A DNA stretch of 46,444 nt from a virus. The first letter of the stretch is position 1. Each line of letters begins with the position of its first letter. The notes below the pieces were generated by a model. That model saw nothing but the letters and a program-made list of their open reading frames with translations, did not search any database and was not told where the DNA came from. Made by a program: the position numbers and the translations under genes. This document shows positions 4,371 to 36,203 of the stretch, piece by piece. The stretch lies in IMG/VR virus record IMGVR_UViG_3300042316_000197, positions 1-46,444 of that record; one strand, 5' to 3'.

Positions 4371-7300
4371 ATGCTACAACCTGATAAATTAAAAAAATTA
4401 AACGAGAATGCTGCAAAAATGGCTCAAGCAGGAAGTAGTCAAGAGGATATTTTAGCAATGAAAGATGCCTTTATACAGCAATTCGGAAACGAGCAACCAA
4501 TTGATGTAAAAAAAAAAGGTTCTTCGGTATCAAACATACCTCAGCAACAGCAAACAGGTACTACGGAATTACCTGTGGCAGATGGTTCATTGGTTACGCC
4601 TGTACCTACTAAAAAGAAAGCTAATCAGTCAGAATATTATAAAGACCCTGAAGAAAATGTATTTGAAAAAACTGTAGGTTATCTCGGTGGGTTACAATCT
4701 GAAGCAGCTAAATCTACTCTTTCTTTTATTGATAACATTATAGTTAGCGCAAGAAAAGGATTGCAAGGAGAAGGTTTTTTTGATGATGATATTCCTGATA
4801 CTGATACTCCTATGACTGATGCTATGACAAAGAAAGTGTCTTCTAAAAAAGGAGAGATACTTTCTTTAGACCCTAAATATGGTAAACCTAAAAGCGATGG
4901 AGGTCCATTAGACCCAACTCCATTTATTAAAGGCGCTGCTGAAATTGGTTTAAAAGTAATCAATTCAACTATGCCTCAAGACCAAAAAAACTTAATAATA
5001 TCTGCATTGAATTTAGGTTCAGCAAAAGTAGAAAGGTCTATTAGAGGAATTGACAAATATCAAGGATATGTACTTCCAAAAGATAATATACCTACCAATG
5101 TTGTAAAAGGTATAGTTGGTATGGCTCCTGATTTAATAGCGGCATCTGTTATGAAAAGTCCGGCAGCAGCAGAAGGAAGACTTGCTAAAGCTGCAACTGA
5201 AATATCAGCAGGAGCAAAACCTTTAATTCAAAAATATCTACCTAAAGCAGCTAAATTTATTGAAGAAGCAGTAAGAGCACCATTTACCAAAATAATGGCA
5301 GCTAAAGGAACCGTAGAGGGTATAGCTAATGCTGAAGAAGGAAAAGATATAGTAGAAGCAGGTTTTGAAGGAGGTATTGAAGGAGCTAAAGAAGGTATTA
5401 TTATGCACGGTCTTGGAGTAGTGGCAGGTAAAGCTACGCCGGTTATAGCAAAGGTTATATCTAAAACAGGACTAAATAGTACTTGGTCCACAGGAATAGC
5501 TAATCCACTTGCAAATGCAGGAGTATTTACAACAGCTAAAGCTATACGTACACCTATTGAGACAGGAGAATTAGCTACGGGAGAAGAATTAATTATGGAG
5601 GCAGGAACAGGTGTAGGATTTAGTTTACTACACGCAGGAAGTTTAGCTAAAAGCCACAATGAACTTAATCATTATGCTGACAATGCTTTAAAGACAGACG
5701 CTACAGAATCTTTAAAAAGAGTTGTAAACGAGACTAAAGATAATTTAGACTTGGTTTATAATCCTGACTTGACTACTGAAAATATAGTTCAATTAGAAGA
5801 GGCAAGAGACGGTCTTAAAACTGCAATAATAAGAGAACCTGATTTACAAAATAAACAATTATTAATAAATGAAGCACTAAAGATTCAAAATCAATTAGAT
5901 GCTCATTCTGCTGTTAATGATATTATAGAGCATAAAGACTTGCTTATTGAAGGTATTAATGGCGATGAAAGTGCGTCTGATAAGGATAAGGATTTCTATA
6001 CTAAAAAAATAAAAGCTATTGCAGACCATTTTGACAACTCAGAGTTTGGAGTTAAGAAGAAAGAATTAAATGCTAAAATAGCTGATGTTCAAAAAAAATA
6101 CGACATATCAGAATCAGAATCAGATAGAACAGAATTAGAAAACTTAAATGTTGAATTAACTAACTTAATAAAAAACAAAGATGCCGTTCAAAAGCCAACA
6201 ACAGATGAAAGCGTGCTACGCACAGAACAACCCGAAGTGGAACTGCAAGGAGTGGTCGAAGGAAACGCCCAACCTGAAGGAGTTACCGAAGAAACTATCA
6301 CTACTGAGAAACCGGAAGAAGTAGTTAAAGTCAAAAAGTCAGATGACTTTATGAATGATGCAGAACACGTTGTAACTTTAAATGGAAAAGAAGTAGGTAG
6401 AATTTATTACGACAGAAGCTCAAAAACTTGGAAAGACCCTTACTTTGATAGAAGTAAATTTTCGCCTGAATCTTTTGAGCGTATATATGGAGATATATTA
6501 GGAGAAACAAAACAGGAATCAATAGATAAATTAGTTGAAAGATATAAAGAATCTTTACCTAAAGAAGAAATTCCTATTGAAGAAACAATAGTGGAAAAAA
6601 CTGAAGAACCGAAAGGAGTTCAGTTTACAAAAGATACTGTGTTAAATAAATTTTTAAATAAATTAAATAGTTTAAATCCTGTTCAAATAAATCCTATTAA
6701 TAATAAATCATTTATATATGGAGATAAAGCATCTTTAGAATTTAATAGATTTGACAAAGGAGATAAAAACGAAATATCATTAGAAGGTATATCTTCTTTA
6801 GAAAAAGGTAAAGGTTTAGGTAAAGAAGCTATGATTGATGTAATAAAATCTGCTGACGAACTTGGAACAACTCTTACATTAGATGCAAAACCTTTTGGAA
6901 GAGAAGGTTTAGGTAAGAAAGAACTAATAGATTTTTATAAAAAGAATGGTTTTGAAGTTGATAAGCAATATTTAGAAGACCTTGATTTTGCTTCAGAAAA
7001 AGAAGCAATTGATTATGTTTTAGAAAATGAATCAGAGGCATTACCAATGACAAGAGAACCTAAAAAAGTAGAAGTTGTCGTAGAAACTAAACCTGCACAA
7101 ACAATTGAAGAAGCAATAAAAACTCTTGAAAAATCAAAAGAATATATTGAGGCAGATGATATTCAGAAAGAAGCTTTAGTTAGAGCTACTCGTAAAGAGT
7201 TTGGTCTAAAGGAGAAGTCAGCTCCATCTGTGAATAGGTTATTCGGTAAGCTGAAAGATATTGCTAAGATAACAATGACTGAGAAAGCTGCTCTTGTAAA

Positions 7301-10300: not shown

Positions 10301-10565
10301 TGATTTAGGTAAATTAGCATACAGTAGAAAATATAAAGATAAGTATGGTAATGAAAAAGAAATATCTGAAGAAAATGCTAATAAATTAAAAATTTTTATT
10401 GGACCATTAATGGCAGTTACAATAGCAGGAGCGTTTAATGCTGATATTTCAGCTATAAAAAGAAAAGCGGTTAAGATAGCTCAAAAAGGCGGTGGAGGAA
10501 TAAGTAAAGAAGAACTTAAAAAGTCAGACCCGAAGATGTATAAGATAATGTATGGAAATGACTAA
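4371..10565 (+). CDS. Giant internal virion protein with embedded GNAT-like domain
   Basis: A 2064-aa protein, the largest in the window, third in the ejection-protein series. Visible parts: a disordered Gln/Lys-rich N-terminus (1-90); an Ala/Gly-rich region (about 200-440); Glu/Lys-rich low-complexity linkers (about 580-660 and 890-930); a GNAT-like acetyltransferase segment at about 780-866 with GKGLGKEAMIDVI as acetyl-CoA loop and IDFYKKNGFEV at its end; long coiled-coil-like stretches (950-1250); and a conserved-looking helical C-terminal half with APK-type motifs such as KQPFIQTIPVLVSTTINAG (about 1640) and a hydrophobic segment near 1880. The layout fits the gp16 class that forms the inner-membrane end of the ejection channel. 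I saw no RNA polymerase DxDGD signature and no lytic transglycosylase motif. The stop codon overlaps the convergent gene on the other strand by 4 bases. Confidence 0.65.
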   Translation: MLQPDKLKKLNENAAKMAQAGSSQEDILAMKDAFIQQFGNEQPIDVKKKGSSVSNIPQQQQTGTTELPVADGSLVTPVPTKKKANQSEYYKDPEENVFEKTVGYLGGLQSEAAKSTLSFIDNIIVSARKGLQGEGFFDDDIPDTDTPMTDAMTKKVSSKKGEILSLDPKYGKPKSDGGPLDPTPFIKGAAEIGLKVINSTMPQDQKNLIISALNLGSAKVERSIRGIDKYQGYVLPKDNIPTNVVKGIVGMAPDLIAASVMKSPAAAEGRLAKAATEISAGAKPLIQKYLPKAAKFIEEAVRAPFTKIMAAKGTVEGIANAEEGKDIVEAGFEGGIEGAKEGIIMHGLGVVAGKATPVIAKVISKTGLNSTWSTGIANPLANAGVFTTAKAIRTPIETGELATGEELIMEAGTGVGFSLLHAGSLAKSHNELNHYADNALKTDATESLKRVVNETKDNLDLVYNPDLTTENIVQLEEARDGLKTAIIREPDLQNKQLLINEALKIQNQLDAHSAVNDIIEHKDLLIEGINGDESASDKDKDFYTKKIKAIADHFDNSEFGVKKKELNAKIADVQKKYDISESESDRTELENLNVELTNLIKNKDAVQKPTTDESVLRTEQPEVELQGVVEGNAQPEGVTEETITTEKPEEVVKVKKSDDFMNDAEHVVTLNGKEVGRIYYDRSSKTWKDPYFDRSKFSPESFERIYGDILGETKQESIDKLVERYKESLPKEEIPIEETIVEKTEEPKGVQFTKDTVLNKFLNKLNSLNPVQINPINNKSFIYGDKASLEFNRFDKGDKNEISLEGISSLEKGKGLGKEAMIDVIKSADELGTTLTLDAKPFGREGLGKKELIDFYKKNGFEVDKQYLEDLDFASEKEAIDYVLENESEALPMTREPKKVEVVVETKPAQTIEEAIKTLEKSKEYIEADDIQKEALVRATRKEFGLKEKSAPSVNRLFGKLKDIAKITMTEKAALVKQLRDKARGARESIQEWKKQTKELTDELSDLKKSGKITLNQETAILNKFGKVNIFSEKSVSRFTDYVTKVFNDANYKQKLDVARKNLSSIKKLSKNETKNADLRVLGAEFAKIDPSMLENIDEYNDLSSKINKAIDGSKIRKENVKIAETVDIEKVTEYVEKTLEEQEVKLREEKIAELQDLLGVDAKDFSAEEIDALLQSDKELSKDDEKIVRSTIKKAFDIYSTVVKEMVTTGEDAFTGEEVSFDKKQKDLIERFMNIDPNKIKDPKEALGTVDSLINFIQNKSTAGMLKPIADFEAIKGGEEIINKGLTAIRLRKYFSPKLGRALGQQTTTLPVLGEKMFKGVNRSLDFEEFSGVSDLINNSSKAESESNLIAKSYIKEFYKRKANGESYNTAYNDVERGVFAHMMRNVIGIESRMKKVFDKRKQEVLDTANLLSSKGNESEQEIAKLIKKAYDKILDGSENIKDTKSKTDINNSEGVEYWVNQWGSRYEALSDLAINFYNKVLGKDLGYTPDRLVRLQDKREDIPLEDIKSQFFANTDEILYDKKSGSLMDKQENRRIPKDMYIDFSFDKKNANAMNDALTDLYTAFDTRKVGSFLNSDNYKKIFPSNRDANLYDKRIKKFVRITRKKTPFSNSEVSDLIKNADRIAKLGVTMSLASVKQPFIQTIPVLVSTTINAGYVNPLIGFDPVYNKWLGDLGYAVSNRGVESQGQLESLNKLLEKAATMPREKAMKFIEKIQDESLKLLLVKGDVLVARASFKAYYEQSLKQQGLYKTTETTQTDSGERIVETKGIDYSKHEPNKRAANYAQRMVDRQQNISNPALAGDLYTSESDIQKVVIKMLMPFSSFRMNQSSRLGSDLSTLEYWNTSTKADKTIALRSIAGYASEQATYRALQIGFTILFNSIASKIMGDDDEEEDKKSTQNSIKNAATGAFVDTFSPIPLSDPFVQDALAYSVEELQDVMDMPEDEKIKLFGSQEQSALKIFGSYGIPFQKAKDIYDLGKLAYSRKYKDKYGNEKEISEENANKLKIFIGPLMAVTIAGAFNADISAIKRKAVKIAQKGGGGISKEELKKSDPKMYKIMYGND

Positions 10566-10975
10566 ACAAATCTAACGTACTTCAATGACTTTTGTTTATC
10601 ATAGAATATCATAAGCTCTAAATCATTATAAGAGTTATCACGTGGGGTTCGACCACCCCACTTGATTTCTCCTTTTAATTTCTCAATCCTACCGTAGATT
10701 ATACCATCTTCGCAGGACCATATTACTACAGGTGTTAATCTCTTATCTGAAAGTTTAAGGACTTTTCTTGCTGCTATTGGTAGTGGATAGGCATTATACA
10801 TTGTTCTTATTCTTCCTTTTACCTCTGCGTATGCAATTAATTTCCCATCTTTATCAAATACTTTGTAATCAATATCTTGAGGGTCGAGTTTTTGGAATGA
10901 ACCTCCGAATGTATTTACGAATGTAGTTATAGCTTTATGTTCTCTTTTTAAATCTTGCTCTGTTTCAAAAGTCAT
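10562..10975 (-). CDS. PD-(D/E)XK nuclease-like protein
   Basis: A 137-aa protein with a restriction-endonuclease-like core: D34/D36 in DPQDIDYKVF, then a strand LIAYAEVKGR giving E51-x-K53, preceded by an N-terminal helix with E/H residues. This D...ExK spacing is the usual metal-binding set of the fold. Likely activity is Mg-dependent DNA cleavage, either a structure-specific or a homing-type nuclease. It is the last gene of the minus-strand block and overlaps the next upstream gene (ATG side) by 11 bases. The biological role is not clear. Confidence 0.6.
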   Translation of the reverse strand: MTFETEQDLKREHKAITTFVNTFGGSFQKLDPQDIDYKVFDKDGKLIAYAEVKGRIRTMYNAYPLPIAARKVLKLSDKRLTPVVIWSCEDGIIYGRIEKLKGEIKWGGRTPRDNSYNDLELMIFYDKQKSLKYVRFV

Positions 10976-11159
10976 CTTCTTCTATTGATTTTAGTATCAA
11001 TCTTAATTCTACAATTAGAAACTGAGTTTCTTTTCTTACCATTTTAAAATCACGGTCAACTAAATTCTCATATACATTTGCTAATGATATATGGTATTCA
11101 TTTACTCTATAAGCAATACGAGCTGCTCTTTCGTCTTCGCTATTTAAAATTGATTTCAT
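10965..11159 (-). CDS. Hypothetical helical protein
   Basis: A 64-aa, all-helical, charged protein (NSEDERAARIAYRVNEYHIS..., IEEDDF end). I do not recognise it. It overlaps the downstream nuclease gene by 11 bases and starts 3 bases after the DnaA-like gene's stop, so it is in the same transcript. Confidence 0.55.
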   Translation of the reverse strand: MKSILNSEDERAARIAYRVNEYHISLANVYENLVDRDFKMVRKETQFLIVELRLILKSIEEDDF

Positions 11160-11162
11160 ATT

Positions 11163-11675
11163 TTAGCTATTAAACTTTGGTAAAATGTTCCGTTTAATAT
11201 CGAGAACATTAGGTATATATCCTGTTGTTTTTTCAAATTGTTCTAAATAATCTACAAATTTAGTCAATATTTCCTTCTTTTCTTTAATAGCATCTTGAAG
11301 CTCTCCATTTAGTCTAATTATAGTCATAAATAAATCAACATCTTTCTTTCTGCTATTAAGAATAAGCTCTCCCTTTCCTTCAAGAAATAAGCTTTTACAA
11401 GATAAATACTTGTCTCTTAAATTTTTATCATATAAAAGTATAGAGTCAATACTTGACATATAATGTATTATTGTAGCGTGGTCTCTATTTAAAGATTTAG
11501 CTATTAGTTCGTAAGTATGTCCTCTATCTCGTAATACCTTTGAATATACTTTACGGGCATCAACTAATTTTCTTTCTCTTGTATTCTCGGACAAATCAAC
11601 GCTAAACATATTATTTATTATCTCTTTTAGAGAATTTATTTCTGACTCAGTTGTTTCGTAATATGATAATTCCAT
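11163..11675 (-). CDS. DnaA domain IV-like DNA-binding protein
   Basis: A 170-aa protein. Residues about 24-80 (NMFSVDLSENTRERKLVDARKVY, then YELIAKSLNRDHATIIHYMSS) match the C-terminal DNA-binding domain of bacterial DnaA, including the RDHATI-type signature helix that contacts DnaA boxes. The AAA+ ATPase and domain I are absent; the C-terminal half is a charged helical region. DnaA-domain-IV-only proteins could bind origin or operator repeats without ATP-driven assembly. Candidate targets here are the iteron-like repeats at 34401-34470 or 33539-33580 (inference). Confidence 0.75.
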   Translation of the reverse strand: MELSYYETTESEINSLKEIINNMFSVDLSENTRERKLVDARKVYSKVLRDRGHTYELIAKSLNRDHATIIHYMSSIDSILLYDKNLRDKYLSCKSLFLEGKGELILNSRKKDVDLFMTIIRLNGELQDAIKEKKEILTKFVDYLEQFEKTTGYIPNVLDIKRNILPKFNS

Positions 11676-11679
11676 TTAA

Positions 11680-11922
11680 TTAGATTGGTTTAAACACTTC
11701 GGCTTTTACTCCGTGTTCGGTTAATTCTTTTATCCTGTACTCTTGTAGCTTCGATAGCTTTCCTGTCGGTCCTTTGACTTCATAAAACTCAACGTCTGAG
11801 TTTTTAGGAATAGCTAAAATGTCACAAATACCGTTCTTGTTGGTTTTAATCAACTTCAAAACATAATATCCCTGAGCTTCAAGTTCTTTAATCTTTTTCG
11901 ATTGTATTTGGCTCTCTTTCAT
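11680..11922 (-). CDS. VRR-NUC family small nuclease
   Basis: An 80-aa protein with the compact VRR-NUC (PD-(D/E)XK) pattern: ESQIQSKKIKELEAQGYYV helix, GICDILAIP (catalytic D), EFYEVKGPTGKLS (ExK), then KLQEYRIKELTEHGVKAEVF. Stand-alone VRR-NUC proteins are common in phages and cleave branched DNA such as Holliday junctions. I use the ATG at 11922; a TTG at 11940 in the same frame would add six residues but lies inside the attC-like repeat at 11920-11994. The start codon itself overlaps the repeat's outer end. Confidence 0.75.
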   Translation of the reverse strand: MKESQIQSKKIKELEAQGYYVLKLIKTNKNGICDILAIPKNSDVEFYEVKGPTGKLSKLQEYRIKELTEHGVKAEVFKPI

Positions 11923-11994
11923 AACTAAGTATTGTAGCAATTTTATATTGCTTGATTATTTACTTTTAAAACTGCGACAATACGACAGTTATGC
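11920..11994 (-). repeat. attC-like inverted repeat 3 (after macro-domain gene)
   Basis: On the minus strand this 75-base site begins GCATAACTGTCGTATTGTCG and ends with TACAATACTTAGTTATG. The arms pair imperfectly: CATAACT and GTATTGT on one side with ACAATAC and AGTTATG on the other, leaving bulged bases. Outer AAC...GTT core ends, imperfect arms and a position right after a gene's stop codon are the features of integron attC recombination sites. The macro-domain gene's stop codon lies inside the outer core. Confidence 0.55.
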
Positions 11995-12399
11995 TCCATT
12001 GCTAACCTTGTGCCAAAATCGAGATGGTAGGTGGATATTGAAAACATTAACAGCCTCTTTAAATAAAAGTGCTACTTCTTTTGGTTTCAAGCCAGCTAAT
12101 CCGCAACCTATTTCAGTTACAAGAAAAATCAATTTTTCATTAGCCTTTGCAAACTCAATAAACTCATCTACAAAAGGCTTTATTTCTTCAATGGTTAATG
12201 TTCGTCTTATACTCGCATCTTTTGTTGGTATTCCGTATGTTCTACCTTGTAAGCCTTTTGCTTGTCCCCACTTTGCACCCCAACCAAGTGCAGTTTTAGC
12301 AGCACCTTTTCCGTGCCTACCTGATAAGTTTGACCCAAACACAAAAATTTGATTTTCTGCAAGGCTGTTAATGTTTTCGGGTGTTGTTCTTTCAATCAT
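11989..12399 (-). CDS. Macro-domain-like protein (possible ADP-ribose binding)
   Basis: A 136-aa protein with the pattern IFVFGSNLSGRHGKGAAKTA (about residues 18-37) and LVTEIGCGLAGLKPKEVALLF (about 93-113), which correspond to the ligand-binding loops of macro-domain-like proteins. Macro domains bind or remove ADP-ribose and its derivatives. In a phage such an activity could counter NAD- or ADP-ribose-based immunity, but that is inference. It is flanked by attC-like repeats on both sides (11920-11994 and 12428-12559), so it looks like a captured gene cassette. A 134-aa open frame on the opposite strand is its shadow. Confidence 0.7.
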   Translation of the reverse strand: MIERTTPENINSLAENQIFVFGSNLSGRHGKGAAKTALGWGAKWGQAKGLQGRTYGIPTKDASIRRTLTIEEIKPFVDEFIEFAKANEKLIFLVTEIGCGLAGLKPKEVALLFKEAVNVFNIHLPSRFWHKVSNGA

Positions 12400-12427
12400 A
12401 ATTTATCGTTTTAAATCCGCAACGAGA

Positions 12428-12559
12428 GCATAACAGCGTGTATAAAAAATGGCGGGTTTCGTGCCATTTAGAAACATTTGTGCTGATATGAACTGCATTG
12501 CTTTCAAGTTAATTTTGTGCTTTAATTCCGCCACTTCTTATACACGCAAAACGTTAACA
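12428..12559 (-). repeat. attC-like inverted repeat 1 (long variable loop)
   Basis: The plus-strand left arm GCGTGTATAAAAAATGGCGG and the reverse complement of the right arm, GCGTGTATAAGAAGTGGCGG, agree at 18 of 20 positions. Outer ends are GCATAAC and GTTAACA. About 80 bases lie between the arms and may form an extra hairpin, as in long attC sites. It fills the gap between the hypothetical gene (stop at 12560) and the macro-domain gene (start 12399). Confidence 0.6.
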
Positions 12560-12889
12560 TTAATTATATGAAACCGAAATAACGCCCGAAGGATAAACTA
12601 CAATATCTTCGCTTGCTTTTTTATTTGTAATAAGCGTTACAAAAGATTTACAACCGCCTTGAATTTTCATAATTCCTACACTTACTGATTGCGGAGTTAT
12701 AATATTTAAGTTTTCTATTTTAAATGTTCCATCTTCATTTTTAAAAATGTTAGCGTGATAGTATTTCGGATATTTAGCATAATCATGCGTAATAGTTCCT
12801 ACTAATTCATTTACTTCTTTTTCAACAAAGGAATTAATAACTATTTGTCCTAATTGTGGGTGGTTAATTTGAATTTGTTTTACTTTCAT
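12560..12889 (-). CDS. Hypothetical protein in attC-like cassette
   Basis: A 109-aa protein of mixed strands and helices (QIQINHPQLGQIVINSFVEKEVNELVGTI...). I do not recognise it. It is bounded exactly by attC-like repeats: its stop codon touches the repeat at 12428-12559, and its start is 33 bases from the repeat at 12923-13003. Cassette genes without known function are the norm in integrons. Confidence 0.6.
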   Translation of the reverse strand: MKVKQIQINHPQLGQIVINSFVEKEVNELVGTITHDYAKYPKYYHANIFKNEDGTFKIENLNIITPQSVSVGIMKIQGGCKSFVTLITNKKASEDIVVYPSGVISVSYN

Positions 12890-12922
12890 TTTGTTTAATT
12901 TTTAATATTTATAAATAACTAA

Positions 12923-13003
12923 TGTTAACAGCGGTTTTACGCTATTGTGCCGAATCAACTAACCGCACAGGCACAACAGACGTAAAGCCACATAACGTTA
13001 TAT
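12923..13003 (-). repeat. attC-like inverted repeat 2
   Basis: On the plus strand GGTTTTACGCTATTGTGCC pairs with GGCACAACAGACGTAAAGCC across an 18-base loop, with one bulged base and two or three mismatches, and with outer ends TGTTAAC and CGTTATAT. The stop codon of the gene at 12998-13303 lies inside the GTTA outer end. Same architecture as the other two sites, but the arm sequence is different, as is usual for attC sites. Confidence 0.6.
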
Positions 13004-13303
13004 CTCTACCTTGGTTGTTTTCATTAGTTCATTTACAGAAAATGTTATGTGGTTGCATTCTTTGATGAACTCAATTAGTTTATCTAAGTCTTCTTTTTTA
13101 AAGGAAAATCGACTCGCTAAGAACCACGTGAAAGGAGAACAACTATCATCAAGGTCAATCTCTTGAACTTGAAAAGCCAATTGTTTTTGAGGTAGCACAG
13201 TCATGCTAAAAGCCAACGTGTACTCTTTATCTTTTTCTAACCACTTGTGCTGAGGTATCTTACTCGGTCTGTTATCTGCATTTATGCACACGCACTTTAT
13301 CAT
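12998..13303 (-). CDS. Hypothetical phage protein
   Basis: A 101-aa protein beginning MIKCVCINADNRPSKIP...HKWLEKDKEYTL. The pattern 'CI...nrP.eIP..kW...g..Y' recurs in phage hypothetical proteins as far as I recall, so this is probably a phage backbone gene at whose 3' end the cassettes were added. It overlaps the upstream gene by 4 bases. No function can be assigned. Confidence 0.6.
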   Translation of the reverse strand: MIKCVCINADNRPSKIPQHKWLEKDKEYTLAFSMTVLPQKQLAFQVQEIDLDDSCSPFTWFLASRFSFKKEDLDKLIEFIKECNHITFSVNELMKTTKVEI

Positions 13304-13599
13304 TTCTTACTTGATTTTCCGTTCTGACCATTTCTCGCTCTGTTGGACATCATATTCTCTTTTACCATACCGCCAACTTTTGTATGGCTCATATCCAATC
13401 CATCTCCATTACCGTATGTTCCGGCATCACGATTAGCTTTGTTTAGTTTCTCACGGTAGTTAACCCTCTTAGGACTGTTCTGATACTTGGTATCATAGGC
13501 TAATTTCTTCTTTCTTCTTTCCTCTGACATACCTAACTTGTCATAAGATGGGTGCTCCCCTGCCATTTTATTTTTCATCTTGTTTTGATTTTTTTCCAT
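13300..13599 (-). CDS. Conserved phage protein of unknown function
   Basis: A 99-aa, strongly basic protein with a distinctive central pattern: SEERRKKKLAYDTKYQNSP, RVNYREKLNKANR, GTYGNGDGLDMSH. I have a memory of similar proteins in many marine phages, always without known function. It could be nucleic-acid binding because of its charge. An internal ATG (residue 8) is an alternative start. It overlaps the gene upstream by 25 bases. Confidence 0.6.
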   Translation of the reverse strand: MEKNQNKMKNKMAGEHPSYDKLGMSEERRKKKLAYDTKYQNSPKRVNYREKLNKANRDAGTYGNGDGLDMSHTKVGGMVKENMMSNRARNGQNGKSSKK

Positions 13600-13706
13600 A
13601 ATTGTTTTTTCTTATTCCATTTTACATACTCAATTTCTGATGTAGTATGTTTTGTTGGTCCTGTAAAATCAATTATGGGAGAATTAATAATTATTTCTTT
13701 TTTCAT
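13575..13706 (-). CDS. Hypothetical small protein
   Basis: A 43-aa protein (MKKEIIINSPIIDFTGPTKH...). A longer open frame starts at 13775, but its first 23 codons overlap the zinc-ribbon gene in another frame; the ATG at 13706 directly follows that gene's TGA, which fits the overlap style of this block. Function unknown. Confidence 0.5.
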   Translation of the reverse strand: MKKEIIINSPIIDFTGPTKHTTSEIEYVKWNKKKQLWKKIKTR

Positions 13707-13707
13707 A

Positions 13708-13830
13708 TCAATTATCTGATTTATATGCTTTTGCACATTCTTTACTACAAAATTCTCTATCTGAGTCCTCTCCACAATATTTGCAAGTACACTCTTTTTC
13801 TTCGGGTGGGTAATCGTTCCAATCTGTCAT
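13708..13830 (-). CDS. Small zinc-ribbon protein
   Basis: A 40-aa protein with four or five cysteines in the order CTCKYCG ... FCSKECAKAY, i.e. CxCxxC followed by CxxxC, a zinc-binding knuckle. Its ATG overlaps the stop of the upstream gene as ATGA. Small zinc-finger proteins like this are frequent among early phage proteins and may bind nucleic acid or a host protein (inference). Confidence 0.6.
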   Translation of the reverse strand: MTDWNDYPPEEKECTCKYCGEDSDREFCSKECAKAYKSDN

Positions 13831-14039
13831 AACTTTAATTTTAGTTTTAAATCCTCAAAATCTTTTTCTTCAAGTTCTGAATTATATAGTTCAAATTCTA
13901 TTTCTTCAATATGATTATCTGTAATTATTAAAACGTGATAATTTTCAGACAATTCCATTTTTAAATTAAACTCAATGTTTCTAAACATTTCAAGGTCTAT
14001 ATTCTCACTTGGTAATCTACATACAAATATTGGTTTCAT
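13827..14039 (-). CDS. Hypothetical protein
   Basis: A 70-aa acidic protein (MKPIFVCRLPSENIDLEMF..., ending in a Lys/Leu-rich helix). No family recognised. Linked by 4-base ATGA overlaps to the genes on both sides, so translational coupling is likely. Confidence 0.55.
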   Translation of the reverse strand: MKPIFVCRLPSENIDLEMFRNIEFNLKMELSENYHVLIITDNHIEEIEFELYNSELEEKDFEDLKLKLKL

Positions 14040-14245
14040 AATCTTTTTTCTTTTTTAACTTCGTGTATCCTACTTTTTTTATTATAAATTACATTTTCTT
14101 TCGGTATAATTTTAACTTCACTTATTAAAACTTTACAAGGTTCGTCTAAATACCAAATATAATCTTTATCTGTTTCTGAAATCATACCTGCTTCGCAATA
14201 CTGCTCTCGGATGCCCGGTGGTTGAAAATAAATTGTTTCTGTCAT
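14036..14245 (-). CDS. Hypothetical protein
   Basis: A 69-aa protein (MTETIYFQPPGIREQYCEAG...) with a basic C-terminal tail. No recognised domain. It lies directly downstream of the SNF2-type helicase gene and overlaps it by 4 bases. Confidence 0.55.
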   Translation of the reverse strand: MTETIYFQPPGIREQYCEAGMISETDKDYIWYLDEPCKVLISEVKIIPKENVIYNKKSRIHEVKKEKRL

Positions 14246-15732
14246 AAGTAAAAATCTTTTTTAAAGTGGGCTAACGTGTAGTCCTTCTTCTTGGTTACTG
14301 CTTTATAAATCTCTTGTTCAATACCTCCCTTAGCAAAAATCCAAAATACTTGGTTCTCTAATCTTTCTTTGGTAGTCATTCTGTCTTTAGACTGCCAATA
14401 ACTTGTTGCGCTAAAGTCTATGTTGTAATACACAAGGTAGTCTGCTTTCTTTAAACTAATACCTTCTCGACCTGATACAATCTGCAATGCAATGTTCTTA
14501 TAACTACTATTGAACTCATCTAAATCAGTCGTTAATTCATCTCCGAATATTTTCTGTAAAGCTACTAATTCTTCTTTAAACTTATAGAAGATACCAATCT
14601 GACATCCCATAAATTGTTCTTGAATAAACTCAGCCTTTGTGGTATCAATAACCATTGACTTCCCGCTCTCAAACTTTACTGTCCCTGAGTACAATTGATG
14701 TATCTTACTCATCAATTTTACAGGAGTATCTCCTAAGATTACTTCTTCTTTACCTTGAATAACTAATTCTCTTTTCAGCTTACTAATCATCTTATAAGTT
14801 GATTCTTTAAGCTCAACCTCAAATATTTCTTCAGTAGTTTTAGCTACAAATCCTGCTTCTGCTTGAGTATAATTAATTGTGTATGGGTCCATTTCTTCAA
14901 CAATGGTGTACATACCGTCAGAGTAATCTTTAATTACTAACCCATTAATCATTTTAGTTTTTACAATTACAAATTTATCACAAAATCTGTAGAAATTCTT
15001 AAATTCTCTAAAAGGATTTTTAGGTATTCCATAAACTTGATGATACATCTGAGAGTAGGACTCAGGAGTAGGTGTGCCTGATAAGAGAATAACATTCGCT
15101 TTTGATTTAGCAATTAAGTCTTTAACCTGAACTGCTCTATTACTTGGCTTAGCAAATGCACCCATTGAATGAGCTTCATCACAAACAATTAAATCCCATT
15201 TTGATTCGGGTATTTTATGTATGCTTTCATAGTTCGTAACGGTAAGTTCGTATGGAGGATTTAAAAGATTGTAATCTGTTTTTATACTTCCTATTGCTTT
15301 CTTTTTTGTTAAGAACAATACATTGCTACTGTTAATTCTTTCCGCTATCCCAAGACTTGTTAGTGTCTTACCTGTACGAACTTCCATAGCGAGATAGACA
15401 AATCCATTTTTAGTTAGTATGTCTGTTCCTTTTCTAATAATGTCGTTTTGATAATCCCTAAACTCTATTTGATTGTTTCTTTCCATATCTTTCTCGTGAA
15501 GTTTCTTATAATGCTCACAACTATTAGCTATCCTGTCTCTTACCTCTGAAGGGGTATTGTGTTTGAAGCTTTGTATTATTCTAACATTTTTACCCCTTCC
15601 TGTCTTTGTTTCAATAGTTTGAAATACAACGCTCTTTAATAACTCGCATTGCTTCCACATCTCTTCATTATTGAAACCTGTGTTTCTCTCGAGTATGTCT
15701 ATCGTTTGAGTCTCTGATTGCATAGTGAGCAT
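14242..15732 (-). CDS. SNF2-type (SF2) DNA helicase/translocase
   Basis: A 496-aa superfamily 2 ATPase. Motif I is AMEVRTGKTLTSL (about residue 116-128), motif II is DEAH (about 185), motif III is LLSGTPTPES (about 215), and the C-terminal lobe has SGREGISL (motif V) and YWQSKDRMTT (motif VI, about 445) ahead of a segment on uncoupled use of 'IEQEIYKAV'. The N-terminal Q-motif region is FRDYQNDIIRKG. SNF2-type proteins of this size are regular members of phage replication modules and move along or remodel duplex DNA. It overlaps its upstream neighbour by 34 bases. Confidence 0.85.
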   Translation of the reverse strand: MLTMQSETQTIDILERNTGFNNEEMWKQCELLKSVVFQTIETKTGRGKNVRIIQSFKHNTPSEVRDRIANSCEHYKKLHEKDMERNNQIEFRDYQNDIIRKGTDILTKNGFVYLAMEVRTGKTLTSLGIAERINSSNVLFLTKKKAIGSIKTDYNLLNPPYELTVTNYESIHKIPESKWDLIVCDEAHSMGAFAKPSNRAVQVKDLIAKSKANVILLSGTPTPESYSQMYHQVYGIPKNPFREFKNFYRFCDKFVIVKTKMINGLVIKDYSDGMYTIVEEMDPYTINYTQAEAGFVAKTTEEIFEVELKESTYKMISKLKRELVIQGKEEVILGDTPVKLMSKIHQLYSGTVKFESGKSMVIDTTKAEFIQEQFMGCQIGIFYKFKEELVALQKIFGDELTTDLDEFNSSYKNIALQIVSGREGISLKKADYLVYYNIDFSATSYWQSKDRMTTKERLENQVFWIFAKGGIEQEIYKAVTKKKDYTLAHFKKDFYL

Positions 15733-16034
15733 TTTATTTTAGGAACGTACTCATCAATCTCAGGCATATCGCATTTGCAACAACCTTCTTTGTAAGTACC
15801 ATCTTCATTGAATGTTTTAGCTACATACTCTTTTAGTTGTGCGCATTTCTCGTACATCTCAATCTCTTTGAAATAGAATATCATAAAGTTAATACTATCT
15901 AATGCGGCTTCCTCGTCAGGTAAGTGTGCGAATACGCCTATTCCTGCATTTATAACTTGCTCAACAGATACTTTTTCTGTTAGTATGTTGAATGAATTTA
16001 TCATCCCAATGTGTGTCATTTGTGTACTGTTCAT
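15699..16034 (-). CDS. Hypothetical protein with C-terminal zinc ribbon
   Basis: A 111-aa protein: a helical body (about 1-80) and a C-terminal CCKCDMPE ... IKCSLCNQRLKR segment, giving two CxxC pairs that could bind zinc. It overlaps the helicase gene downstream by 34 bases and the gene upstream by 4. The function is unknown; a partner role for the helicase is possible but not shown. Confidence 0.55.
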   Translation of the reverse strand: MNSTQMTHIGMINSFNILTEKVSVEQVINAGIGVFAHLPDEEAALDSINFMIFYFKEIEMYEKCAQLKEYVAKTFNEDGTYKEGCCKCDMPEIDEYVPKIKCSLCNQRLKR

Positions 16035-16432
16035 AATCTTGATTTTACAAGTTCAAATAATTTTTCGTGAGATGTTGAGCCAAAAAAATTATGTCCTACA
16101 AGACCTCTTACATCATTAAAACATAAACAAGGTTTATACTGTATTATAAAATCTCTTGCTCCTTCTTTACTACTAAAGTGTTTTTTAATATCTGTATCTA
16201 CTCTAATATCAGGTATCTTAATTGGCTCCCAAGCATTATGAAAAGGCATATCAGTTAAAGAAACCATATAGCAAGTATCTTCAACCTCCTCCCAAAACTC
16301 AGAATAGTCCTCTACGCTATGTCTAAAAATAAGATAACTATTAGCCATATAAATTTTATCGTCTCTTTTTTCAACTTCTGTTCCTAATATAGGACCGCCC
16401 GGATACTCTTTTATTAATTTAAACTTTTTCAT
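16031..16432 (-). CDS. Conserved phage protein of unknown function
   Basis: A 133-aa protein with the N-terminal pattern KLIKEYPGGPILGTEVEKRD and a later SEFWEEVE. A 'KLiKEYPGsP.lGt' start followed by 'p.FWe.v' is a phrase I recall in several Bacteroidota phage hypothetical proteins. No catalytic motif is visible. Confidence 0.55.
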   Translation of the reverse strand: MKKFKLIKEYPGGPILGTEVEKRDDKIYMANSYLIFRHSVEDYSEFWEEVEDTCYMVSLTDMPFHNAWEPIKIPDIRVDTDIKKHFSSKEGARDFIIQYKPCLCFNDVRGLVGHNFFGSTSHEKLFELVKSRL

Positions 16433-16443
16433 AATTTTTCTAT

Positions 16444-16632
16444 TTATTGTTTAACTTCTTGCCAATATGATGGATAAAGGATATTTGAATTTAATCTATC
16501 ATTTATTAACTCATCAACTGCTATTAATGCACATTGTTTTGCCCGTTTATAACTCATTGATGATTCCCATTTGTTTCTAGTTCTTTGGATAAAACTATCC
16601 ATTAAATCTAATGCTTTTTCTTTTGGTGTCAT
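16444..16632 (-). CDS. Hypothetical helical protein
   Basis: A 62-aa helical protein starting MTPKEKALDLMDSFIQRT, with conserved-looking CALIAVDELI. Proteins with 'kekA..L.d.f......A..CA.iaVdEil' are common in phages of this host group; function unknown. Confidence 0.6.
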   Translation of the reverse strand: MTPKEKALDLMDSFIQRTRNKWESSMSYKRAKQCALIAVDELINDRLNSNILYPSYWQEVKQ

Positions 16633-16697
16633 AGTGTGTATGCTAAAATTAGTGTTATTATTGCGAAGTATATTACATTGAGTAATATGTTAAACAA
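16629..16697 (-). CDS. Possible tiny membrane peptide
   Basis: A 22-codon frame beginning at a TTG (16697) encodes a single hydrophobic span (FNILLNVIYFAIITLILAYTL) and its TGA overlaps the next ATG as ATGA, the coupling style of this block. There is no ATG start, and a perfect 7-bp hairpin (16670-16688) lies in the same bases, so it may instead be non-coding. Compare the other tiny membrane proteins at 24196, 25363, 31510 and 21870. Confidence 0.3.
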   Translation of the reverse strand: MFNILLNVIYFAIITLILAYTL

Positions 16698-16705
16698 TTA
16701 TCTCT

Positions 16706-16918
16706 TCATAGTGTTCTGATTATTTCTTTTGAACGTGAGTCGAACTTCTTATGCGGCATTAACTTCTTTGTGTTACATACAACCACATCAAATGACCTCT
16801 TGGTGTAATGGTCAAACCTGCCCCAATTATCTAATACATACTTGCGTATATTAATTCCTTCTTCCACTTCTAAGCTATCTAATAGATGATGAAGTCTCTG
16901 TACTTTTGTTACTTTCAT
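16706..16918 (-). CDS. Hypothetical basic protein
   Basis: A 70-aa basic protein (MKVTKVQRLHHLLDSLEV...). No recognised family. Its ATG overlaps the TGA of the 52-aa gene upstream. Confidence 0.5.
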   Translation of the reverse strand: MKVTKVQRLHHLLDSLEVEEGINIRKYVLDNWGRFDHYTKRSFDVVVCNTKKLMPHKKFDSRSKEIIRTL

Positions 16919-17073
16919 ATTCTTTTACGTTTTGGTTTTTCTAATCTTAAATTTGAAATACAAACCTCATAGCGTTCCTTGAAATCAGGATGCTGTAAGG
17001 TCATATCAATATCATTCATAAACCTGATGATGTACTCATCTTTGCTCTCGCTTTTCTGTCTGTATAATATCAT
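16915..17073 (-). CDS. Hypothetical small protein
   Basis: A 52-aa basic protein (MILYRQKSESKDEYIIRF...) ending in LEKPKRKRI. Supported by ATGA overlaps at both ends with neighbouring frames. Function unknown. Confidence 0.5.
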   Translation of the reverse strand: MILYRQKSESKDEYIIRFMNDIDMTLQHPDFKERYEVCISNLRLEKPKRKRI

Positions 17074-17192
17074 TCTATTATTTTTAAAATTTTACGATAT
17101 AATTCATTAACTCTCTCTGAATTGACTCCTCTTTTGTAGTAGAAGTCCATTACTTTTTTAATTCTTGTAATTGGTTTAAAATATCTTGACAT
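17070..17192 (-). CDS. Hypothetical small protein
   Basis: A 40-aa basic, helical protein (MSRYFKPITRIKKVMDFYY...). It overlaps the downstream gene by 4 bases and starts 2 bases after the upstream stop. Function unknown. Confidence 0.5.
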   Translation of the reverse strand: MSRYFKPITRIKKVMDFYYKRGVNSERVNELYRKILKIIE

Positions 17193-17194
17193 AA

Positions 17195-17371
17195 TTAAAT
17201 TAATTTTAGTTGACTAATATCTAATGTTTTCCAATATTCTTTTTGCTTTCTTACTTTGAATAATGTTTTGTTCAGTTCTTTGCGTTGTAATAATAACTCA
17301 TCTTCTCTGTCTCTGAAGATATTAATGTTTTTTAGAACTTCTTTTTGACTGTAAATTTTAGGTTCTTCCAT
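17195..17371 (-). CDS. Hypothetical coiled-coil protein
   Basis: A 58-aa charged helical protein (MEEPKIYSQKEVLKNINIF...) directly after the primase-helicase gene, separated by one base. Its size and place suggest a small partner of the replication protein, but nothing in the sequence shows it. Confidence 0.5.
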   Translation of the reverse strand: MEEPKIYSQKEVLKNINIFRDREDELLLQRKELNKTLFKVRKQKEYWKTLDISQLKLI

Positions 17372-17372
17372 A

Positions 17373-19802
17373 TCATTCTTTATTTAATTGAATTTGTGTT
17401 TCGTTATCTGCTCTCTTCTTAATAATTATCCATCTACCCAAGTGGTCTCGGTCCTCTTCAGGCATTAGTCCTTCTTTGTATATAGCATAAGCTATCAGCC
17501 ATTTGTAGAACTTTGTCCTACTAATTGTCATCTTACCTCTTGAACCGTAGTCAGGATACTCATCGACAAACGTATGGTACAACTCGTTCTTATATAGTCT
17601 AACATTTGTAGGAAGCGCAGTACTCTTGTCATTGTTATCTACCAATCCAACCCACTCAATAAACTCGTGGCAAGTCTCTGCTGATAACTGTCTAATCTTT
17701 AAGTTTACAAACTTAGACTTAACTAATCCGTAAGTAAGATAGTAACTCAAACACCCAATCATATAGTTATCAAACTCACACCAATCATCATCATTCCAAT
17801 CTCCAAACATCATCTTTCCAAAATCGTCTCTTGGCGTGAAATCTAATGTGTAATACTGATGTAGTTCTAATTCCCATTTTCGTCTCGCAAATGAGTTCCC
17901 TGCACCTTTGATTGCGTAGTTAGTTGTTATTGCAACTTTTGGAGATTTGTTGAATGGTATCTTGATAGCGTCTTTATTCTTCTTCTCTAATGTCAACCCC
18001 TCAGTAATCACACTGAACAGTCTCTCAAAATCAAAATGTTTCTTGACATCATCAAAGCAAAGTATCTGCGTATCTGCCGATACCAACTGATAAGGAAATG
18101 ACTTCTCAAAGTTGAATGACTTACCATCAATTACTACGAGCTTCTTCATATTACTTAGAGCGTTCATAACCAATCCCTTTCCCGTACCGCCTTCAGGGTT
18201 ATCACTAATGACCTCATCGTTAAGTATCACAGCAGGACAGAAAGATAAGTTCTTATATCCGTGTTGAAGGAATCCTATCGTACTCTCCATTGTTTTTATC
18301 CTGTTCTCATCATTGCCATTTATGTTCGATATAAACTGTTTGAAATCACATTTACCTGTAACAGGACAAAGACTAAAGTTCCTATCAATCACGTGGTCTT
18401 TCCATACATATCCACCTAAGTCTAAGTAGTCAATAATCAAGATACCATCTTTAGTAATCTTTACAGCACAGTTTTTATAATACAAGTACGCTGAGTCTTT
18501 CTTATCTGCGATAAAGTATATGTCAATCGTTGATAGCATTGATAAGAAGTCGTCTTTAAAGTATCTCGTATTGTCTGCGAAGTAATTGTATATACTGTAA
18601 TCATCTAACTCTAACAAATGTGTAAGAACAAAATCCTTAATCTCTTTCTCTGATGTATGGTCAATAAGATTGTTAGTAACCTTTACAAATACATAATTCC
18701 TACTACCTTCAGGACAGAACTTATAGAAGCCTGAGTCCTCAAGGAATTGCTTGAATAGTATGTGCTCTATTTTTATAACTCCTTTATCGTTCTTTGTCCA
18801 AAATGTCATTTTAGAATTTTCATCCTCAACTTTATTTAGCACAGCATCGATAGTATCGCTATCCAAATTGGAGTCTTGCAGTTGGTAGCGAATTTCCTTT
18901 TTTGATACACCTCGTCTTAGCTTTGCACGTATCTGATTGATACGCTCCTCATCTTCATAATACTTAGTGCCGAAGTTAGCAGTATGTTTATAAGCTGAAT
19001 CAATTGTAATAGCTATCTCTGAAATTGAGAAGTCAGCAGTAGCAAATTGATTTAAGATATAAGCTGCAAGACTTTTGTTAACACCAAAATCATTGAAAGC
19101 CATAGCTAAAATATATGCATTGTGGTTTCTCTGACCTTCCTGCATAGGATATTTCTTCTCCCACCACTTAACCAATATCTCAACAATCTTATTCTCATCT
19201 GAGATTGGTATCGTTGCTTGGTCTCTAACTCTATTTACTTCAACGTATTCGGGTTCTTCAATTATATCCCAAACAGAGGAGTTCTCATTAACGTGAATTA
19301 AAGGGTCATAAGACTCGTAGCATACTCGACTAAGGTTTTTACTTGTTTTGTCGAAATAAGGGCTATTAAAATGCTTTTCTAAGCTATTGAAGTAGTTTGT
19401 ATGATTGTCTGCGTCAGCAGGAATCTTAACCAATACTTTTAAACCATTACCTGAAGGAGATATGAATACTGAAAATACATATTTGTTTTTCGATATAGTC
19501 TCTTTGTCTTGCAATAACTCTTTTTGTTTTGAATACCCATCAAAATCCAAACATACAAGTCCTGAGTGTTGGTCCAATGCGTTATCTAATCTTTTATTGA
19601 ACGTACCGCTGAAACAAATAGCGGGTAGTAATTTCTTAATCTCATTACGTTCTGATTTATTCTTTTCTTTTCTGATGCGTTGGACAATGTCTTTGGTAGC
19701 ACCTGTACCGTCTTTGATTCTCTCAAGTATTATATTAACATCCCTGAAGAACGGAGTGTCCGTATCTCGTATGTTTTGGAAGATTGTTACTGTGTGCGTC
19801 AT
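17373..19802 (-). CDS. Primase-helicase (VirE/BT4734-like N-terminus, SF3 helicase)
   Basis: An 809-aa replication protein. The N-terminal third has LVCLDFDGYSK (about 82-92) and FSVFISPSGNGLKVLVKI (about 109-126), which match the BT4734/VirE N-terminal and primase-like domains of Bacteroidota elements (acidic metal-binding residues and a G-N-G-L-K loop). The middle, with NHNAYILAMAFNDFGV, resembles the primase C-terminal helical domain. The C-terminal half is an SF3-type helicase: Walker A NPEGGTGKGL (about 530), Walker B ILCFDDVKK (about 575), and the sensor-like KVAITTNYAIKGAG. It likely makes primers and unwinds DNA at the phage origin. CGACAT-type repeats lie directly before its start. 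Confidence 0.85.
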   Translation of the reverse strand: MTHTVTIFQNIRDTDTPFFRDVNIILERIKDGTGATKDIVQRIRKEKNKSERNEIKKLLPAICFSGTFNKRLDNALDQHSGLVCLDFDGYSKQKELLQDKETISKNKYVFSVFISPSGNGLKVLVKIPADADNHTNYFNSLEKHFNSPYFDKTSKNLSRVCYESYDPLIHVNENSSVWDIIEEPEYVEVNRVRDQATIPISDENKIVEILVKWWEKKYPMQEGQRNHNAYILAMAFNDFGVNKSLAAYILNQFATADFSISEIAITIDSAYKHTANFGTKYYEDEERINQIRAKLRRGVSKKEIRYQLQDSNLDSDTIDAVLNKVEDENSKMTFWTKNDKGVIKIEHILFKQFLEDSGFYKFCPEGSRNYVFVKVTNNLIDHTSEKEIKDFVLTHLLELDDYSIYNYFADNTRYFKDDFLSMLSTIDIYFIADKKDSAYLYYKNCAVKITKDGILIIDYLDLGGYVWKDHVIDRNFSLCPVTGKCDFKQFISNINGNDENRIKTMESTIGFLQHGYKNLSFCPAVILNDEVISDNPEGGTGKGLVMNALSNMKKLVVIDGKSFNFEKSFPYQLVSADTQILCFDDVKKHFDFERLFSVITEGLTLEKKNKDAIKIPFNKSPKVAITTNYAIKGAGNSFARRKWELELHQYYTLDFTPRDDFGKMMFGDWNDDDWCEFDNYMIGCLSYYLTYGLVKSKFVNLKIRQLSAETCHEFIEWVGLVDNNDKSTALPTNVRLYKNELYHTFVDEYPDYGSRGKMTISRTKFYKWLIAYAIYKEGLMPEEDRDHLGRWIIIKKRADNETQIQLNKE

Positions 19803-26901: not shown

Positions 26902-26979
26902 TGTACGGAGTTTTTGTCAATCTCTCTTGGGTTCTTCCGTTGTTACCACCAAGTTCATTCGGTAGCTATCCGACACCGT

Positions 26980-27067
26980 GGGCAAGGCAGGAATCGAACC
27001 TGCATTTACGTCTAATCTTGTCTAGCCGACCATACCCAACAAAGCGTTTCCATTTCGCCACTTGCCC
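26980..27067 (-). tRNA. tRNA-like element B with enlarged anticodon loop
   Basis: Minus strand. 7-bp acceptor (GGGCAAG with CTTGCCC), D-arm (GCG/CGC with AAATGGAAA loop), perfect T-arm (GCAGG, TTCGATT, CCTGC). Between D- and T-arms are 40 bases. The best local fold is a stem TTTGT/ACAAG (one G-U pair) with a 17-base loop, then a 13-base variable region (ATT...AAT could pair). Length of 88 suits a class II tRNA (Leu, Ser, Tyr type), but no standard 7-base anticodon loop with U33 is found, so the isotype cannot be called. Confidence 0.5.
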
Positions 27068-34586: not shown

Positions 34587-36203
34587 ATGTTAGAAAATCA
34601 AGGTTATTCCCCTAAAGATTTGTTCTTTGGAGAGCAAGGAAGGAAAAAATTAGTCAGTGGCGTAGTGAAAATGTCAAAGGCTGTGAAGAGTACGTTGGGT
34701 CCCGGAGGGAATACAGTGCTAATTGAGAGTCCGAACCACACGCACGGAATTACTGTAACCAAAGATGGGGTAACTGTTGCTAAAGCTATTGACCTATTTG
34801 ACCCATCTGAGAACCTTGCGGTTAAGATGATGAAAGAAGCGGCAGACAAAACAGCTTCATCAGCAGGAGACGGTACAACTACAGCGATTGTTTTGACTGA
34901 AGGATTAGTACTTGGCGGACTTGAGTTTATAACTCCTGAGATGAACCGGACAGAAGTTTTGAGAAGCATAGTGGACATTAGCGACAAGGTGGTGGACAAG
35001 TTGAGAAAACGTAGCAAGAGAGTTACGAGTACAATGTTAGTTGATGTAGCTACTATATCTGCAAACAATGACAAAGAGATTGGTAAGATTATCTCTGAGG
35101 TTTACAAAGACGTTGGTAAAACAGGAATTGTTACAGTTGAGAAAAGTCAGAACGATGAGACTTACGCTGAGACCACATTGGGATTGAAATTTGACAGAGG
35201 GTATTTAAGTCCGATGTTTATCAATGACCAAAAGAAAGACGAGTGTGTGTTTGAGGATGTGATGGTATTAGTTGCTGATATGGAGATTAGTAATATCCTT
35301 CAGATTGAGAACGTATTGAAACCAATTATCACAGAGGGTAAAAAACTTCTAATCATTTCTCCGTGTAACACGAACGTGATAAATACTTTTGCTGCCAATG
35401 TAGTAAAAGGGAATGCTAAGATATGTATCGTTGCGCCTCCGGCATTTGGCTACAAGCAACACGAGCTAATGCACGACATAGCAATAAGTGTTGGAGCGAC
35501 ATACTTCAGTGAGAAAACAGGAGATGATTTGAGCATTATCAACTACGGGGACTTAGGTCACGCAGCTAAAATAATTGTTAGCAAAGACAAGACTGTTATC
35601 ATCAAATCAGGACTAAGGATAGACCAAGAGGTTATTGCCGAGAGAGTAACTCAGTTATGGGATTCACATAAGATGGCAACTAAGAAAGCAGAGAAGGATT
35701 TCTTGTTAGAGAGAATTGCTTCGCTTACAGGTGGGATTGGTGTGATATTCGTAGGAGGTCAAACTGACTTGGAGCAAAAAGAGTTGTACGACAGGGTCGA
35801 TGATGCTGTTTGTGCAGTAAGGTCTGCGCTTGAGGAAGGGATTCTTCCCGGAGCAGGTAAAGCATTACTTGAGGAGTCAGCTGCTTTGTTTACAGATGTA
35901 AATAAAAGTGCTGAGTATAGTGCAGCAATTGCAATTTTAAAGGTAGCGCTTATGGCTCCGTTCTTACAGATACTTGCAAATGCAGGACTAAAAGCAGAGG
36001 ATATTTATAAAGATGGTATTGCTGAGGGTCAAGGTTACAATTTAAAAACAAAAGAGTTTGGAGACTTGATTAAGATGGGAGTAATTGACCCGCTTAAAGT
36101 AACACGTTCTGCATTACAAAATGCAGTAAGTGTAGCTGTAACAATCCTAAGCACTGATGCTACAATTACGTTGGCACGTACTTATGAGCAAGCTCAGGAC
36201 TAA
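34587..36203 (+). CDS. GroEL-like chaperonin (Hsp60)
   Basis: A 538-aa protein, normal size for GroEL (about 548). Diagnostic parts: KSTLGPGGNTV (about 35-44), HGITVTKDGVTVAKAI (about 53-68), SAGDGTTTA (about 92-100, nucleotide binding), and GILPGAGKALL (about 420). The C-terminus lacks the usual GGM repeats and ends EQAQD. It should form a double ring and fold proteins with ATP; a GroES-like gene is in the same operon. Phage GroELs are rare; they are thought to fold phage proteins such as the capsid subunit. The control region before it has iterons. Confidence 0.9.
   Translation: MLENQGYSPKDLFFGEQGRKKLVSGVVKMSKAVKSTLGPGGNTVLIESPNHTHGITVTKDGVTVAKAIDLFDPSENLAVKMMKEAADKTASSAGDGTTTAIVLTEGLVLGGLEFITPEMNRTEVLRSIVDISDKVVDKLRKRSKRVTSTMLVDVATISANNDKEIGKIISEVYKDVGKTGIVTVEKSQNDETYAETTLGLKFDRGYLSPMFINDQKKDECVFEDVMVLVADMEISNILQIENVLKPIITEGKKLLIISPCNTNVINTFAANVVKGNAKICIVAPPAFGYKQHELMHDIAISVGATYFSEKTGDDLSIINYGDLGHAAKIIVSKDKTVIIKSGLRIDQEVIAERVTQLWDSHKMATKKAEKDFLLERIASLTGGIGVIFVGGQTDLEQKELYDRVDDAVCAVRSALEEGILPGAGKALLEESAALFTDVNKSAEYSAAIAILKVALMAPFLQILANAGLKAEDIYKDGIAEGQGYNLKTKEFGDLIKMGVIDPLKVTRSALQNAVSVAVTILSTDATITLARTYEQAQD

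Follow-up and report, generated by a model that had tools for sequence, protein, structure and literature searches.

According to the accessible parts of Qi et al. (2023, PMC9892861), phage-borne cassette arrays without an integrase are already known: 17 CALINs are counted among 10,705 phage genomes screened, and IntI1 was active on five of six phage attC sites. They consist of attC clusters with cassette genes but no integrase, and occur in lytic phages, including the Bacteroidota phage P12002L of Polaribacter, which has methyltransferase cassettes. In those same parts, an empty site, genes flipped relative to attC and an XerC-like recombinase are not reported. Integrons of Bacteroidetes are treated as rare in the portions available of the IntegronFinder 2.0 paper (PMC9024848), with only In0 known before the one complete integron found in Salinibacter ruber; the available text of The Natural History of Integrons (PMC8618304) places Bacteroidota among the phyla with integrons.

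The DNA analysed here (the window, an IMG/VR virus record of 46,444 bases) has a cassette region that reads on the minus strand. As in an integron with IntI and attI, it is composed of cassette units that end in a structured site. Sites recognised by a covariance model, mobility of the block that contains them, and the absence of a tyrosine recombinase together lead to the reading of an integrase-less cassette array in a phage. The observation made in the initial annotation is confirmed, and its interpretation as an attC cassette array is supported. The window is quite likely to be a phage, probably of Bacteroidota, with an integron-type array that lacks an integrase, while cassette exchange in trans by a host recombinase is an inference. 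What looks new is the cassette system behind the array, with an unfamiliar attC type and a likely recombinase other than IntI, the role of which is inferred.

Layout of the phage locus

The features are listed in the direction of reading, with scores from the covariance model (R1) described below.

12998..13303, minus strand: phage gene upstream of the insert; its frame stops in the TAA of site C's TAAC
11923..13004, minus strand: inserted block (site C, hypothetical gene, site B, A1S_2505 gene, site A), absent in the relative L061; ends ambiguous by one base
12923..13003, minus strand: site C, attC-type (53.3 bits, E 5.8e-9)
12560..12889, minus strand: cassette 1, hypothetical protein of 109 aa; a relative with 72% aa identity is found in viral contig L312
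12428..12559, minus strand: site B, attC-type (94.2 bits, E 1.6e-17)
11989..12399, minus strand: cassette 2, A1S_2505-family phage non-structural protein of 136 aa (NF049995, E 5.3e-39)
11919..11994, minus strand: site A, weak attC-type match (19.5 bits, E 0.069); starts TAACT like the end sites
11680..11922, minus strand: VRR_NUC nuclease gene, with its ATG at 11922 directly after the GTT of site A, the right-hand edge of the insert

The initial annotation had described two gene-plus-repeat units with an inverted repeat behind each gene, and this layout stands: all three imperfect inverted repeats are real, and each lies on the minus strand right behind the stop codon of a minus-strand gene. 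The label of a macro-domain protein for cassette 2 had to be abandoned, as Pfam gave no match at E<=0.1 and NF049995 did; the protein is a clear member of the A1S_2505 family, differing in that its gene is here flanked by cassette recombination sites. Cassette 1 found no match in Pfam, NCBIfam or PHROG at the limits used. The absence of a tyrosine integrase is borne out, with no match to TIGR02249 in the window, and none to PF00589 in 12 virus records including the window (some of them fragments), a search in which 14 of 14 control genomes were positive. Rfam returned just one chance match (mir-140) for positions 11000-14500 at E<=5. The VRR_NUC gene is adjoined by a gene for a small protein with a DnaA C-terminal helix-turn-helix domain (11163-11675), which is present in many loci of the phage family.

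In each site, the two arms pair with each other and lie between TAAC and GTTA. A scanner for such TAAC...GTTA arms gave scores of 29.9 for site A, 44.2 for B and 39.2 for C, and no score >=28 in six first-order Markov resamplings of one 46-kb window strand. Folded as single-stranded DNA, the minus strand had z-scores of -3.4 (A), -1.6 (B, where 13 of 200 shuffles fold equally well) and -2.6 (C). The plus strand did about as well (A -4.2, B -1.2, C -2.8), so folding alone neither establishes site B nor chooses the strand. The outer boxes are TGTTAAC/GTTATGC (B), ATATAAC/GTTAACA (C) and GCATAAC/GTTATGA (A), and their outer bases deviate from RYYYAAC/GTTRRRY; as had been pointed out, the strict consensus is not kept, the common ends being TAAC/GTTA only. 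Sites B and C have the attC features of an imperfect inverted repeat, conserved outer boxes and variable yet complementary arms and, at about 360 bp apart and with no integrase (PF00589) found, they fit the definition of a CALIN, which needs at least two attC and no integrase.

The phage contig L001 shares an 18-base string with the 5' end of site B; searched with this string, viral contigs gave 48 matching stretches and genome contigs 5, many of them in arrays with up to 10 scanner sites (score >=32) per locus. Over 193 loci, some of which overlap on the same contig, there were 156 scanner sites of score >=32. Model R1 was built from 49 aligned sites, none from the window or L001. In this alignment, 94.6% of cells pair (63.9% when shuffled, at most 48.7% when slid), 19 of 24 pairs have changed on both sides, and the covariation score is 0.676 (0.151 shuffled, <=0.107 slid). 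Since arm pairing was a selection rule for the 49 sites, the covariation arises partly by construction, which is bounded by the null rate of the scanner. Extrahelical bases set the choice of strand in attC sites. The 49-site alignment has no universal bulge; such places are taken by a G.U opposition that is invariant (46 of 47) and appears as a C.A mismatch on the opposite strand, and by a pair that is unpaired in 20 of the 49.

R1 recovers B and C on the minus strand at exactly the coordinates first annotated. Site B has arms in common with members of the training set; site C, by eye, does not. The plus strand of site B reaches only 17.9 bits, which is barely exceeded by site A, as is a chance match at 6537-6610 (14.5 bits). 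An attC design with significant covariance hits is thus firm for two of the three sites, and site A remains a weak match, interpretable as a degenerate attC or an attI-like end site. The Scalindua locus L189 was considered as a member of this family and rejected as a chance pattern match, R1 finding no site in its genome, and L300 (contig G002:C202) holds an array of mostly near-identical sites (GTTCCGGGTTAATGAAGTGGCGGA...), unlike the diverse arms elsewhere.

Mobility of the block and its cassettes

The relative L061 lacks exactly the 1082 bp from 11923 to 13004; its identity to the window is 96.2% over 10557-11922 on one side of the gap, and 94.3% over 13005-13578 and 97.1% over 14240-18533 on the other. 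Its gene corresponding to that at 12998 directly meets the VRR_NUC start and, as read from the sequences, its frame continues into the VRR_NUC gene; R1 finds no site in L061. The junction reads AAGGTAG-ATGAAAG in L061 and AAGGTAGAGATATAACG...TTAGTT-ATGAAAG in the window. On the left, about 8 extra bases precede TAACG, and on the right there is an extra TT; the insertion is therefore not accounted for by one attC x GTT crossover at a target like that of L061. The stretch at 13579-14239 also differs from L061, aligning over only 123 bp, and is therefore generally variable. Six other loci (L065, L068, L069, L071, L072 and L073) have ACGTATCAATTCCGTAAAAA-type stretches, some repeated, just before the VRR_NUC start, which is the cassette junction in the window; this junction may be tolerant to insertions.

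The initial annotation had proposed the precise presence or absence of gene-plus-repeat units between relatives as support, and this is observed for the whole block in the window and L061, and again at another locus of the same phage family. There, L080 is empty and reads GAGCTATGACAAATG. L083 is occupied: a weak TAACG site (E 0.024) precedes one gene and a second site (E 3e-14) precedes another, after which CGCTAACTAGTTTATTG leads to the ATG that is also present in L080. The flanks are 84-94% identical. This second insertion carries a TAACT end site. Among 76 loci of the family, R1 matches only L083 and L076, the latter a training site; L076 and L077 were examined as a further occupied and empty pair and set aside, the differing region being larger and mixed. 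No gain or loss of a single gene-plus-site unit was seen in the window itself, but genes and sites do move together, as judged from L061 and from homology breakpoints that fall at sites.

Both cassettes recur in other viral contigs. The A1S_2505 cassette matches L001 at 94% DNA identity from 12444 to 11987 only, a span that begins within the 3' arm of site B and ends at site A's TAAC; none of 13 other window proteins tried matches L001, an IMG/VR contig with ORFs that look lysozyme- and tail-like by eye. For the hypothetical cassette, the match is with L312 (80.5% identity over 12916-12552), and homology stops at the hairpins. L001 has six scanner sites, five of which R1 finds. Sixteen loci are related to L001 through its lysozyme-like protein; five have R1 sites (L204, which is L001's contig, L205, L206, L208 and L216) and eleven have none. 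The site in L205 is weak (E 0.001), and L208 and L216 have one each. Four of these loci (L204, L205, L206 and L208) have a conserved end stretch: behind the last gene come TAACTA... and TGTATTACAA, and then a 60-aa gene common to them. A comparable stretch, TAACTACTTACTAACACCTATAA, is seen in L216. In L001, the gene immediately upstream of the array's first attC-type site (L001 1387-2280) by eye resembles a serine recombinase and has no tblastn match elsewhere among the lysozyme-related loci.

P12002L and its sister P12002S were compared over about 13-15 kb. In the long pieces that both have, identity is 97.6-99.8% (99.7% over 5.0 kb); the two differ at two methyltransferase-gene blocks bounded by short TAACG...GTTA hairpins, with the same ACAACGGATAAAACAAG stretch repeated at both blocks in P12002L. 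The short hairpins of P12002L escape R1 (best E 0.36). The 39.7-kb contig G002:C436, binned in a bacterial MAG, has at least ten attC-type sites; with its portal, terminase and tape-measure genes, it is a phage.

Bacterial arrays, recombinases and gene orientation

R1 matches occur in four of the five genomes behind the pattern matches (up to 73 matches), in 43 of 58 relatives of the Bacteroidia MAG G003 (itself counted in), and in 114 of 247 genomes of its phylum, probably Bacteroidota (E<=1e-6). The last count is a lower bound, because 13 candidates were scored per genome. Genomes from the phylum of the Scalindua MAG gave 0 of 79, and the earlier suggestion of a Bacteroidota-type variant gains support from this difference. 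The hypothetical cassette gene itself was found in 0 of 395 genomes (a search without a positive control), and A1S_2505 in five matches in the 395 (43-62% identity), with no site in the approximately 3.4 kb examined around each.

None of the 58 G003 relatives has an IntI over the TIGR02249 cut-off, although 43 carry sites. Below the cut-off, 18 places at E<=1e-30 represent an XerC-like recombinase, of which 12 were testable, with at least 2 kb of contig beyond the 3' end of the gene (the other six were untestable or had <1.4 kb). At 10 of these 12, an R1 site is observed within about 5.2 kb 3' of the recombinase, its model strand opposite to the recombinase. Taking the site density of G003, which ranks among the denser genomes, 0.035 sites would be expected per locus by chance. 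Some of the sites are weak (E 0.001-0.002 in L349 and L351; in L358 the nearest has E 0.03 and another, at 4 kb, 1.8e-5), and in L342 and L356 the tested 3' stretch has no R1 site. Starting instead from 20 arrays, a recombinase is present in 8 regions, in the same layout in 7 but not in one (L386), and none was seen in the other 12. Several G003 contigs (C4, C8, C14, C28, C30, C31, C51 and C55) contain short fragments of the recombinase C-terminus, several at contig ends and some near attC-type sites, which are either assembly breaks at a repeated gene or remnants.

The array-side recombinases share PF00589 and a SAM-like N domain with XerC/XerD-like tyrosine recombinases, and their best PDB matches are XerC-like 4a8e and IntI4 2a3v. 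They differ from the XerC/XerD-like enzymes in that most have an added N-terminal stretch and in recurring beside cassette arrays. In 19 of 20, the motifs GKGxKDR and HxLRH are 58-64 residues apart (one protein is truncated), compared with 100 in two Scalindua IntI and 66 in three XerC/D-like proteins. Judged from this spacing, the array-side enzymes are without the IntI insertion, the element of IntI that binds folded attC. A complete integron, defined by an intI gene with the IntI-specific insertion, is accordingly found neither in the window nor in the chromosomal arrays.

At 18 of 23 recombinase loci, a TAACTnGTTTATA-like motif (TAACT-GTTTATA-type) lies 72-154 nt beyond the recombinase stop codon, although its consensus was taken from the same sequences that were counted. 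In the direction of the recombinase, it reads like TATAAAC.AGTTRRR and resembles an attI core. The end site of L083 scores 16.8 on the matrix of these end sites, where ten resampled window strands reach maxima of 6.0-13.7 and the window itself peaks at 10.9. Site A has no rank on this matrix, and the end stretches of the L001 group do not score on it (1.3-6.1 where ranked). The chromosomal order of recombinase, GTTRRRY-like site, gene and site is that of an integron. The arrays are unlike an IntI integron in that the recombinase falls under the TIGR02249 cut-off, that it points the same way as most chromosomal cassette genes, and that the phage arrays have no recombinase and have flipped genes.

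This flipping is observed directly. Among 26 phage sites, 22 have an ORF stop at their TAAC on the model strand (1 reversed, 3 neither), as do 36 of the 41 model-building sites, nearly all from IMG/VR (3 reversed). Chromosomal sites of the array-started set give 7 of 69 on the model strand and 49 reversed, and those of the recombinase-started set 11 of 43 and 22. Counted per locus, 60 matches of the latter set comprise 16 of model type and 30 reversed, with 9 of the 16 sitting in the phage contig G002:C436. For 22:1 (phage) against 7:49 (chromosomal), the Fisher p is 1.6e-12; sites within one array are not independent, so this overstates the case, yet the contrast is still large. The idea that chromosomal cassette genes point towards the recombinase was rejected, as most of them have the recombinase's own direction and lead away from it. 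An ORF stop within 15 nt of the site was found for 3 of 66 on the model strand and 26 of 66 on the reverse, against 4 of 66 at random positions. As chromosomal genes are mostly opposite relative to attC, phage cassettes are not a random sample of the chromosomal pool; the phage arrays seem to keep the attI-attC order and yet carry their ORFs flipped.

Proposed mechanism and competing explanations

Two accessory genes bounded by directional, foldable attC-type sites (TAAC/GTTA) form a single 1082-bp block between two phage genes, oriented along the phage operon. The gene-plus-site units are mobile: one relative has the empty site, and copies of the units recur in other phage contigs, where homology breaks off at the sites. 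They are inferred to belong to a Bacteroidota cassette pool that is kept in chromosomal arrays beside the XerC-like tyrosine recombinase. A host enzyme of this kind may swap phage cassettes in trans through folded attC and an attI-like end site at the edge of the array. Action of the recombinase on the sites, in single-stranded form and in trans on phages, is inferred, and its activity on them is untested. Weighing against this reading are the extra bases at the junctions, the variable neighbourhood, the weak site A, the 11 lysozyme-related loci that lack a site, the failure to find either cassette in a chromosomal array, and the mostly opposite gene orientation in such arrays. Whether the block first entered the phage by the recombinase at a secondary site or by ordinary phage recombination is undecided. 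The broader picture can be put forward only tentatively, with slightly less than even confidence: widespread Bacteroidota arrays are served by an XerC-like recombinase without the IntI insertion and with an attI-like site of its own, and phages keep a parallel, flipped pool with an attI-like end site, exchanged in trans by the host enzyme. A title- and abstract-level literature search, which did not cover bioRxiv, found no published description of an XerC-like cassette system.

Hairpins that follow stop codons and fold could also be transcription terminators or 3'-end RNA structures rather than recombination sites. This is very improbable here, given that the sites come and go with the block, that homology to copies of these genes elsewhere breaks off at the sites, and that genes in the chromosomal arrays are mostly opposite to the model strand. 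The locus might instead be an ordinary integron CALIN, mobilised by a classical host IntI. Its attC-like structure would fit, as would the recombination of one P12002L attC with IntI1 in a published assay (accessible text of PMC9892861). This is nevertheless hard to reconcile with the 58 relatives in which no IntI exceeds the cut-off while 43 carry sites, and with neighbouring recombinases that lack the insertion (58-64 residues between the motifs, against 100), and appears rather unlikely; gaps in draft genomes could hide an IntI.

A stronger competitor, though still an unlikely one, is passive capture, in which ordinary phage or illegitimate recombination copied a stretch of an array once and left it as inert cargo. 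The phage has no recombinase, site A is weak, the adjoining stretch is variable too, and the junctions are not clean attC x GTT products, the right edge having ATGAAAG in common with the target; illegitimate recombination is also suggested as a route of entry in the available portion of Qi et al. (2023, PMC9892861). A single event of this kind is opposed by L083/L080, a second insertion on the same plan, by the L001 phage group, with differing arrays and a conserved end stretch, and by P12002L and P12002S, which differ at hairpin-bounded cassettes and are nearly identical beside them. If the arrays are one system, cassette capture would be common in Bacteroidota, and missed because searches ask for IntI. 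It would then also be apparent how phages swap accessory genes, for example methyltransferases, without an integrase of their own, and the need for the IntI insertion in using folded sites would become testable.

Elsewhere, the window also contains a phage-encoded GroEL (34587-36203; PHROG chaperonin, E 1e-130) and a tRNA-Pro (TGG) gene at 26978-27067.
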